Source: Phormidesmis priestleyi BC1401 (lineage in GTDB: Bacteria; Cyanobacteriota; Cyanobacteriia; Leptolyngbyales; Leptolyngbyaceae). Taken from it: a stretch of DNA of 63,473 bases. A program made the position numbers and the translations under genes. The stretch's first letter is position 1. Each line of letters begins with the position of its first letter. Shown in pieces: positions 6,311 to 33,877 of the stretch. Under the pieces are notes generated by a model. It saw only the letters and a list, made by a program, of their open reading frames with translations. It did no database searches and had not been told where the DNA came from. The stretch is taken from assembly GCF_001650195.1 (NCBI RefSeq), contig NZ_LXYR01000028.1:1-63473 (forward strand), in the 5' to 3' direction.

Positions 6311-6515
6311 CTTTTACATCCTTTTTGGAGCTTTCAAAGAAATTAAGCATAGCTGGAGCCGAGAGATAATACCTATCGTTCCCTACCCCTATGATATGCC
6401 AGCAGTGTGAAATAGAGTGTGAAGTTTAAGCAGGTTTTCTCTAGTAAAGCGCCTCAGATTATAGAGGAAAATTGGAGGAAACCCAGTACCTACAGCATTT
6501 CTAAAGCCCAGCGCA
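6311..6515. other. Presumed promoter region of the reverse-strand operon
   Basis: The 205 bases between the start of the TIGR04255 gene and attC4 contain no gene. The operon reads leftward from here, so its promoter should lie in this stretch. No near-consensus promoter could be assigned with confidence. Confidence 0.4.
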
Positions 6516-6602
6516 GTCGAACAACACTGTTGCAGCGGACTGGCTAAAGCTGCGTGTGGTGATGCAAAGTTTATTGGCAGCCGCTGAACAGCCCCGTTGG
6601 GC
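6516..6602 (+). other. attC site 4
   Basis: The outer boxes are GTCGAAC (6516-6522) and GTTGGGC (6596-6602). CTGTTGCAGCGG pairs with CCGCTGAACAG with one extra G looped out. The length is 87 bases. Confidence 0.9.
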
Positions 6603-6712
6603 TGCATCTCGCAAGGGGCGCATAGTGTTGGTGTTTCCTAGCGGTTTGCGTTTTTTCGATCGCAGCCTCCCGATCGTTCATCAAACTTTGAATCTGATCA
6701 AAATCAGGTGAG
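6601..6712 (+). repeat. Duplicated cassette leader, copy 1 (second copy 7698-7809)
   Basis: These 112 bases match 7698-7809 with only a handful of substitutions and no length change. Both copies start at the right outer box of an attC (4 and 5). In copy 2 the segment leads into the Rpn-type gene. In copy 1 the match stops at CAGGTGAG and a different gene pair follows. Confidence 0.9.
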
Positions 6713-6852: not shown

Positions 6853-7128
6853 ATGACAGTTCGACAACCCCGCTACAGCAAAGAAGAATTCGCTCGACGG
6901 GGTGATGAGATTTATGAATCTCAGGTGCGTTCCCAAGTCGAAGAAAGCAATTATGGCAAGATTGTGGCGATCGACATTGAGACAGGCTCTTTTGAGGTAG
7001 CTGATACGCCTATGGTCGCAGTCGATCGACTTTATGAACGCGAACCCGATGCTCAACCCTGGGTGATTCGGATTGGACATCGGGCAGTCTTCCGTTTCGG
7101 CAGCCGCAGTCTGAGACAGTCCGTATGA
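6853..7128 (+). CDS. Small cyanobacterial partner of a retropepsin-like protein, 91 aa
   Basis: This soluble 91-residue protein has the conserved start RYSKEEFARRGDEIYE, then GKIVAIDIETGSFEVAD and a C-terminal RIGHRAVFRFG. The pattern recurs in cyanobacteria directly upstream of clan AA aspartic-protease genes. The stop overlaps the start of the next gene (GTATGATG), so translation is coupled. A toxin-antitoxin-like relation has been suggested by such pairing, but none is proven here. It belongs to the cassette between attC4 and attC5. Confidence 0.85.
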   Translation: MTVRQPRYSKEEFARRGDEIYESQVRSQVEESNYGKIVAIDIETGSFEVADTPMVAVDRLYEREPDAQPWVIRIGHRAVFRFGSRSLRQSV

Positions 7129-7589
7129 TGTTCGGTACGGTTAATAATAATTGTGAGGCAATCATCAAAGTTGCAGTGGGTCGTATTGGTTCGCCCAAAG
7201 TAACCGTTGATGCGGTCATCGATACAGGATTTATGGCCATCGCCACTTTGCTTAGGACATTTTTGGTAATGTGCTTCGCGTGCTGCCAAAAATGTCCCTG
7301 TCCTAACCTATGTGGCGGTAGCCATACCAGCTTTTTGTCTTTACCGCTTTCCATGATCACAGATCTTGGCTTGCCTTGGCATTACCGCGATGTTGGTACT
7401 TTAGGCGACGGGAGCGAAGTCGTCTTTGAAATATACAAGGCGACTGTGATCTGGGATGGTCAGAACCAAATTGTTGATGTAGCGGCTTCCGAGGCAGATC
7501 CGTTGGTGGGAATGGGTTTGCTGTATGGTTTTAAGCTTCAGATTGAGGCGGTTGAAGGTGGTCTCGTTACGATCGAAGCCTTGAAGTAG
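7125..7589 (+). CDS. Clan AA retropepsin-like protein with a hairpin insertion in its active-site loop, 154 aa
   Basis: The family core is VDAVIDTG (near residue 30-35) followed by FLSLP, then DLGLPW, TLGDGSEVVFE and PLVGMGLLYG. Normally DTGF and TGFLSLP run together. Here 31 residues, MAIATLLRTFLVM... to ...CGGSH, split them, encoded by a 93-base inverted repeat (7233-7325). The frame is kept and no stop is introduced, so a protein of 154 residues can still be made, but the insertion falls beside the catalytic Asp loop and may abolish or alter activity. The gene ends 23 bases before attC5 and overlaps its partner gene. Confidence 0.85.
   Translation: MMFGTVNNNCEAIIKVAVGRIGSPKVTVDAVIDTGFMAIATLLRTFLVMCFACCQKCPCPNLCGGSHTSFLSLPLSMITDLGLPWHYRDVGTLGDGSEVVFEIYKATVIWDGQNQIVDVAASEADPLVGMGLLYGFKLQIEAVEGGLVTIEALK
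7233..7325. repeat. 93-base palindromic element inserted in frame in a coding sequence
   Basis: The ends ATGGC and GCCAT and the next blocks CGCCAC and GTGGCG are exact inverted repeats. Inside them TTAGGACATTTTTGG pairs with CCAAAAATGTCC plus TCCTAA, around a 19-base loop. The length is exactly 31 codons. Removing it restores the normal family sequence DTGF-TSFLSLP. The structure and frame are seen directly; mobility is inferred. Confidence 0.85.
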
Positions 7590-7612
7590 AGCAAGGTAAT
7601 CGGTGAGGCGCA

Positions 7613-7699
7613 GTCTAACGATTCAAATGCAGTGGGCAAGCGAAAATTGACGGTGTTGATTTCGAGGTTATCGACCGCCGCTGATTTGACCCGTTGGGC
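7613..7699 (+). other. attC site 5
   Basis: The outer boxes are GTCTAAC (7613-7619) and GTTGGGC (7693-7699). TCAAATGCAGTGG pairs with CCGCTGATTTGA with one looped-out G and a wobble. It is 87 bases long and is the last attC before core genes. Confidence 0.9.
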
Positions 7700-7809
7700 T
7701 GCATCCCGCAAGGGGCGCACAGTGTTGGTGTTTCCTAGCTGTTTGCGTTTTTCCGATCGCAGCCTCCCGATCGTTCATCAAACTTTGGATTTGATCAAAA
7801 TCAGGTGAG
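7698..7809 (+). repeat. Duplicated cassette leader, copy 2
   Basis: This is the second copy of the 112-base segment at 6601-6712. It immediately precedes the truncated Rpn-type gene and probably holds the original upstream region of that gene. Confidence 0.9.
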
Positions 7810-12625: not shown

Positions 12626-12779
12626 TAAGTAGGTAGGCACAATTAAACTGAAGACCCTCATCCCCTAGCCCCTTCTCCCCAAGGAGAAGAGGAACTAGAT
12701 TCTGGTTCCCTCTCCTGCGGGAGAGGGCTGGGGTGAGGGCATCTCCCGCATTTTATGTTTAGTTAAGTCTGTCTACTTA
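12626..12779. repeat. MITE-like element, TAAGTAG ends with CCCTCTCC core
   Basis: The element is 154 bases long and its imperfect terminal inverted repeats are about 23 bases (TAAGTAGGTAGGCACAATTA at the left, matching TAAGTAGACAGACTTAACTA on the other strand at the right). The centre holds the GGAGAAG/CCCTCTCC...GGGAGAGGG palindromes shared by many repeats in this window. It lies between two convergent genes. Confidence 0.75.
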
Positions 12780-33216: not shown

Positions 33217-33877
33217 GAGTCTCGTTAGCTTACAGAAGAGAGCAGGGGGAGCGGAGAAGTGAGGCAGCGCGTGTATTTAATCAATAACACCAAATCTGAA
33301 CGATCGTCGGATTTCGGTGAAGCAACTTTCCAAATCCTGATGTGACAGACCGCAGTTTTTCTACGTTCACCTTTAATATAGACGGGCAATTTTGAATCAA
33401 TAGACCTGTTGCAAAAGTCCCTGCCTTCACCCCAAGTCCCTCTCCCAAGCTGGGAGAGGGACTTTGACTGGCTCCCCTTCTCCCAGCTTGGGAGAAGGGG
33501 TTGGGGGATGAGGGCATCTTCAAGAAGTTTGATGGAGACACGTCTGCCCCTCTAAGTTATAACCATACTCACAGGCAAGCTCGATCGAATCCAAAGGTTT
33601 GGAAAGGTTTCTCGACTCATAAGGGCGGGTCTCCCTACCAGGGTAAACGGATATGCCTTTGAGGGGTCACGCTCAAATCAAGTGCCATAGACTCAACCCA
33701 ATGAGGTCAAAGCGGTGAAACAATCTAATTTCAGTCCAAATCCGCAGAATTTAACGAAAAATGAGCAGTCTAGCGCGATAGAATCCATTTAAACAATCGC
33801 CCTATCTAACCTCATCCACTTGATCGGCTTGCTCAATCTAAATTTTTTGTTAACCCTGCTCAATCGGACTAATCTCT
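33217..33877. other. Intergenic region between topA and ndhB
   Basis: The divergent genes topA and ndhB share this 660-base region, which must hold both promoters. A MITE-like repeat lies at 33401-33534. From 33541 to 33877 no gene or confident RNA is seen. Confidence 0.5.
33401..33534. repeat. MITE-like element, TAGACCTGTTGC left end
   Basis: It starts TAGACCTGTTGCAAAAGTCC, carries CCCTCTCCC...GGGAGAGGG and CTTCTCCC...GGGAGAAG palindromes, and ends with the GCATCTTCAAGAAGTTTGAT block seen at 56065-56213. Confidence 0.7.

Follow-up and report, generated by a model that had tools for sequence, protein, structure and literature searches.

A very probable recent IS630-type MITE insertion behind the DTGF motif of a protease-like gene in Phormidesmis priestleyi BC1401

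The window analysed here is a stretch of 63,473 nucleotides (positions 1 to 63,473 of contig NZ_LXYR01000028.1) from the draft genome of the cyanobacterium Phormidesmis priestleyi BC1401. It carries a clan AA retropepsin-like gene that is preceded by a short partner open reading frame and is interrupted, directly behind the codons of its DTGF motif, by a palindromic element. The features of this locus are listed below, with coordinates of the window.

6853..7128, + strand: partner open reading frame of 91 residues, whose stop overlaps the start of the protease gene (ATGATG)
7125..7589, + strand: host gene, clan AA (DTGF) retropepsin-like, 154 residues with the insert and approximately 123 in homologues (TIGR03698 below cutoff; alignment)
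7221..7232, + strand: DTGF codons, with the presumed catalytic Asp
7232..7233, no strand: target TA, left duplicate (single TA in homologues L149/L153; TA starts and ends 27 of 27 copies)
7232..7259, + strand: left terminal inverted repeat, 28 bases including the TA
7234..7324, + strand: body of the miniature inverted-repeat element (MITE), 91 bases, IS630/Tc1-mariner type, without a gene of its own (27 genome copies; ends match those of IS630 insertion sequences)
7255..7266, + strand: 5' arm of the inner hairpin, GGACATTTTTGG (arm scan; hairpin covariation)
7286..7297, + strand: 3' arm of the inner hairpin, CCAAAAATGTCC (arm scan; hairpin covariation)
7299..7326, - strand: right terminal inverted repeat, 28 bases including the TA
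7325..7326, no strand: target TA, right duplicate (same basis as the left TA)
7326..7346, + strand: TSFLSLP codons, contiguous with DTGF in homologues
End sequence of the element: TATAGCNNTNGCCA......TTAGGACA

The protein encoded by the host gene matches the NCBIfam model TIGR03698 (clan AA aspartic protease) with 40.6 bits, which is below the cutoff of 57.35, and the match covers residues 69-146 only, i.e., the part behind the insert, whereas an uninterrupted homologue (L230) reaches 60.6 bits. The partner open reading frame has a match in 28 of 29 homologous loci and stands beside the protease gene in 27 of the 29, and the two look like a coupled two-gene module. This module is multi-copy in many of the genomes searched. 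In addition, a 202-base direct repeat (82% identical) flanks it at 6511-6712 and 7608-7809, bracketing the two genes as if they had been inserted or duplicated there.

In the first-pass annotation, the 93 bases from 7233 to 7325 had been described as a nested inverted repeat of exactly 31 codons that separates DTGF from the next family motif without a stop or frameshift. All of this holds: the inverted repeat is nested and its inner arms are perfect over 12 bases (7255-7266 and 7286-7297), the open reading frame 7125-7589 stays open across the insert, and both this frame and the alignment of homologues place exactly 31 codons between DTGF and TSFLSLP. The predicted RNA fold of 7233-7325 has an energy of -41.4 kcal/mol (z -6.36), and none of 200 shuffled sequences was equally stable. 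The window also contains at least eight 95-nucleotide stretches, some of them overlapping, with more stable folds than the insert; stretches in 33411-33525 (best -69.2 kcal/mol) and in 12651-12755 (best -60.4 kcal/mol) are predicted to fold far more stably. When the insert was scanned against Rfam, the sole match was RF01768, with 19.3 bits against a gathering score of 43, which was taken as chance, and membership in that family was dropped. The window copy differs from the consensus of its family by three substitutions, two of which (A4G and T92C) affect partners in the end stem.

A protein search with the host gene hit 56 of 144 genomes, including that of the host itself, and two partly overlapping sets of homologues were compared, i.e., a first set of 29 loci and a second set of 26 loci from named genomes. 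The insert is absent from all loci whose match covers the site, 27 in the first set and 20 in the second, the other six of the named loci matching only behind the site. At the DNA level, the DTG motif runs straight into the next motif in 25 of the 29 loci of the first set, and the other four are truncated or frameshifted. The alignment, which comprises 19 of the 26 named loci (the seven that were dropped are partial matches or at 43% identity), has a single 31-column gap in all 19 homologue rows, between F36 and T68 of the window protein, and thereby confirms the insertion point. At two loci (L149 and L153), the DNA reads GATACAGGATTTACCAGC, which corresponds to the flanks in the window minus the 93 bases, with one TA retained. 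The same 31 residues in homologues of distant species, which the first-pass annotation had named as the sign of an old protein loop, were thus found in 0 of 27 and 0 of 20 site-covering loci (the sets overlapping), and the same DNA occurs at 26 other places in the genome. With no point found in its support and with homologues lacking the insert, an old loop of this protein subfamily in place of an insertion was rejected, and its chance of being correct is negligible.

A BLAST search of the own genome (5.55 Mb) revealed 27 strong copies of the element (E < 1e-28), so the further copies that the first-pass annotation proposed to look for do exist in the host. At E values of up to 10, the number of matches was 48, and those beyond the 27 are weak, partial (one of 41 bases) or reverse-strand echoes. 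The copies are 95 bases (24 copies) or 94 bases (three copies) in length, 14 of the 27 are identical to the consensus, and TA is present at both ends of every copy. A genome of the same genus (G001, which appears to be Phormidesmis priestleyi ULC007) has no copy, and the burst therefore looks recent in the host lineage. For a search of empty sites, the flanks of eight other sites among the 27 were joined around one TA and compared with eight genomes. Homologues across the junction were obtained for four of the eight sites, in 19 alignments with gaps of no more than 8 and with the element in none of them; the other four sites had no homologue across the junction. TA is present at the junction in four of four alignments for the site on contig C5 and in the single alignment for C52, and it is missing in the homologues for C2 (0 of 13 alignments, which make up 13 of the 19, several of them from one genome and hence partly paralogues) and for C56 (0 of 1).

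Further copies were also found in other cyanobacteria, e.g., in genomes G044, G081, G124 and G012. The end TATAGCCATCGCCACTTTGCTTAGGACA was detected, with three mismatches at most, in 17 out of 388 genomes from the class, that of the host among them, and a second, inverted end was found within about 135 bases at 12 of 25 loci from other genomes (L097-L124), which are hence short palindromes too. The exact left-end pattern had no match in the named genomes, a set that may omit records near the host genome. Elsewhere the family is abundant, with at least 150 matches in G044, at least 150 in G124 and 66 in G081, both strands seemingly being counted. Sixty copies were fetched from these genomes (40 from G044, 10 from G081, nine from G124 and one from G012), and 59 of them were located. 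These form a non-random sample, as they were chosen from the top-scoring matches to a 95-position model and fetched with flanks of 1 kb, which is shorter than those in the own genome; 58 of the 60 selected copies have a length of 95 bases, and they lie mostly outside long open reading frames.

The ends of the MITE (approximately 28 bases) match the ends of IS630/Tc1-mariner insertion sequences of about 960 bases. Among 57 IS630 loci scanned, eight have an inverted pair of MITE-like ends 955-967 bases apart (L135 and L202 belong to one element) and 49 have no such end pair, and when the end sequence was shuffled, no such pair appeared in any of 300 shuffles. The transposases that were read are split over two frames, and the two halves of the transposase at L130, one of the eight loci, match HTH_Tnp_IS630 and DDE_3. 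In the own genome, a loose end pattern gave 95 matches, compared with 0 for the reversed control. The 27 copies, with two ends each, account for 54 of these. Among the remaining 41, at least 20 are located precisely 97 bases away from where a contig stops, 11 of them at contig starts and nine at contig ends. Contigs with such breaks include C4, C8, C16, C19, C20, C69 and C91 (L338-L354, L357), and the ends fall into six types. Eighteen stubs of the six types were inspected, and the five types that were translated on the coding strand encode an N- or C-terminal end that resembles IS630 transposases, for example MPAPYSDDLRQK and IRKQLRDSDNLRDAVEFVLKQAAS. The stub ends of the host are identical to the MITE at up to 24 of 27 positions, and to older copies at 25 of 27. 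No complete IS630 element with MITE-like ends is assembled in the own genome, where the parent is visible only as 97-base stubs; a transposase flanked by such ends finds its best match in this genome at 31% identity. Around the six assembled DDE_3 matches, the ends are different or no ends were found, except that a MITE copy lies beside one of them. An earlier reading, according to which the parent is absent from the host, was overturned by the looser end pattern and the contig-end stubs. With transposase termini in five of the six stub types, a parent IS630 element is likely to be present in the host in several copies whose interior is missing from the assembly. IS630-type repeats explain no fewer than 20 of the contig breaks in this draft, from which the inner parts of the most repeated insertion sequences seem to have dropped out.

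These breaks bear on whether the repeat could have been placed inside the gene by an assembly error, which a draft of 213 contigs, at least 20 ends of which fall within IS630-type repeats, might suggest. However, the 95-base repeat is shorter than the 97 bases over which contigs run into longer repeats and would be expected to be spanned, the junction is consistent with a TA duplication, and the window copy has three substitutions of its own. An artefact is therefore regarded as extremely improbable.

The reading that we consider very probable is a recent insertion of an IS630-type MITE in a protease-like gene, which is in frame by chance. The element, non-autonomous and without a gene, would have been moved in trans by a transposase encoded in full-length insertion sequences of the IS630 type with the same ends. 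Its point of entry is the TA of GGATTTACC in the clan AA protease-like gene, where the TA was duplicated, and, as it came to lie in the sole stop-free frame of six, the reading frame remains open with 31 more residues right behind DTGF. That the frame is kept is explained by the gain of 93 bases (91 bases plus a TA of two) and by the one frame among the six of the consensus that is free of stops. Of this account, the repeated family, the duplicated target, the sites without the element, the common ends and the stubs in the host are observed, and movement in trans and loss of protease activity are inferred.

In the first-pass annotation the insert had been likened to the palindromic elements that enter genes in frame in Rickettsia (RPEs). 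The element does resemble the RPEs of Ogata et al. (PMC10969869) in being palindromic and short and in being able to sit in frame within a gene, but it has 95 bases compared with approximately 150, no in-frame enrichment, a TA duplication and IS630 ends. An RPE-like element would code for protein, be selected for in-frame entry and be tolerated as a peptide loop; in favour of this, the net gain of 93 bases is divisible by three, the consensus has one frame without any stop, which is likewise stop-free in the G012 copy and in the four G081 copies read, and a second copy lies in frame. To count such cases, a copy was considered genic if the joined open reading frame had at least 150 residues, with at least 25 on either side, a rule that leaves out sites near the end of a reading frame, such as that in an HPP membrane protein at C42, which scores over its Pfam cutoff. 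Fourteen of the 27 own-genome copies are genic, 12 of them in genes over a Pfam cutoff (the exceptions are an M56-like gene and the window gene), and these copies cover all six combinations of phase and orientation. However, just two of the 14 are in frame and open, that of the window gene and that of a TPR protein at C56 (447 residues with the insert), against 2.8 expected from TA phases and orientation; the copy at C91 (GUN4) has the right phase but is of the 94-base form, and its frame is shifted. In other genomes, three of the 59 located copies lie in such open reading frames, none of the three in frame. Moreover, there is a stop in that frame in seven of the eight G044 copies read, the open frame largely follows, in our reading, from the conserved ends, and all three substitutions of the window copy alter the encoded residue. 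On the in-frame counts, an RPE-like coding element was rejected, and we consider it very unlikely. What stands of the original proposal is a recent, repeated palindrome in frame beside the catalytic Asp; its likeness to in-frame elements fails on the lack of an in-frame excess, the TA duplications and the IS630 ends.

The genic share is 14 of 27 in the own genome and 3 of 59 in the non-random, shorter-flanked sample of copies from elsewhere, a difference (Fisher p 1.7e-6) that fits a young burst not yet purged. One genome shows a MITE burst that hits genes at random, with a minority of the insertions in frame as a raw source of protein loops, and the burst is without sign of special coding adaptation.

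In retropepsins, the residues right after DTG(F) form the active-site loop. The insert of the window protein lies one residue behind DTG, in this loop, the TIGR03698 score is under the cutoff, and the gene appears to be dispensable. The same-genus genome mentioned above has a broken orthologue (L249) without the DTGF part (MMQ-stop) and hence tolerates loss of the gene, and a further member of the family, with 56% identity over residues 67-153, is encoded at C12:72395 of the own genome. In Vasconcelosia minhoensis (L248), the match to the gene starts only at residue 81; the gene has been lost repeatedly (L248, L249). The protease is probably inactive or nearly so. Alternatively, the insert may be mobile and the protease still active, with an exposed, Cys-rich loop of 31 residues after DTGF, a possibility that we take seriously but hold to be clearly the less probable of the two. 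The open reading frame, the identity of 82-92% to the 19 aligned homologues and the conservation of all 56 columns that are invariant among these 19 speak for such activity, against the position of the insert, the model score and the apparent dispensability of the gene. The 56 of 56 columns kept imply either that decay has not begun or that the protein is still working, and the insertion may be too young for the rest of the protein to have decayed. AlphaFold models had a mean pLDDT of 38.7 for the interrupted protein and of 51.4 for a homologue lacking the insert, and both values are too low to judge.

The probable chance insertion at this locus can be set beside several known groups of elements. 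As in other IS630/Tc1-mariner MITEs, the target is a TA that is duplicated, the short ends are common with IS630 insertion sequences, and the copies are non-coding, dispersed and near-identical; unlike in those, nearly the whole element is one nested hairpin. ISY100/ISTcSa of Synechocystis (PMC2170065), an example of the parent type, is a cyanobacterial IS630 element that inserts at TA and duplicates it. Nezha is also a cyanobacterial MITE. The MITEs of Anabaena sp. 90 are likewise cyanobacterial, and some of their copies interrupt genes and are folded into hairpins; they are classed (PMC3542288) as having no matching insertion sequence ends in that genome, whereas the family described here has such ends. 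REP/GTAG palindromes (PMC3733652) are dispersed palindromes as well, but they have 20-40 bases, compared with 95 bases, a TA duplication, IS630 ends and approximately half of the copies in genes in the present case. Among the matches listed in a literature search, titles and abstract openings contained no description of this MITE family; it is regarded as a new family of a known kind. With recognisable ends and a presence in several cyanobacterial families, it is suited to studies of how MITEs are mobilised and of what the conserved hairpin does.

To assess the conservation of this hairpin, 18 distinct copies present in five genomes were compared. The inner stem of 20 pairs is paired in 98.9% of cells and has changes on both sides at nine of the 20 pairs, and the figure for the outer helix at the ends is 78.1% of cells. 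The covariation score is 0.278 for a structure that was derived from the same sequences, which favours it, compared with values no higher than 0.123 in slid controls and 0.126 on average in shuffles, none of 500 of which scored as high; the numbers of pairs with changes on both sides (12 vs 11.2) and of pair types (31 vs 28.4) are not above those of shuffles. Compensatory changes that appear to keep the inner hairpin between genomes are a mildly unexpected feature. The further-reaching view that the hairpin itself, beyond the ends, is kept by selection or by the copying mechanism, through a mobilisation step that depends on it (folding of single-stranded DNA or template-switch palindrome repair) or through an RNA function, and that some 93-base insertions pass as tolerated loops, is rather unlikely; its basis is the paired inner stem together with the near-constant length of the copies selected from other genomes. 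The own genome also contains short palindromes at C44:35162-35275 and C11:106081-106184 (L355 and L356) whose ends are of this kind but whose interiors differ, and these probably represent additional types of IS630-group MITEs.
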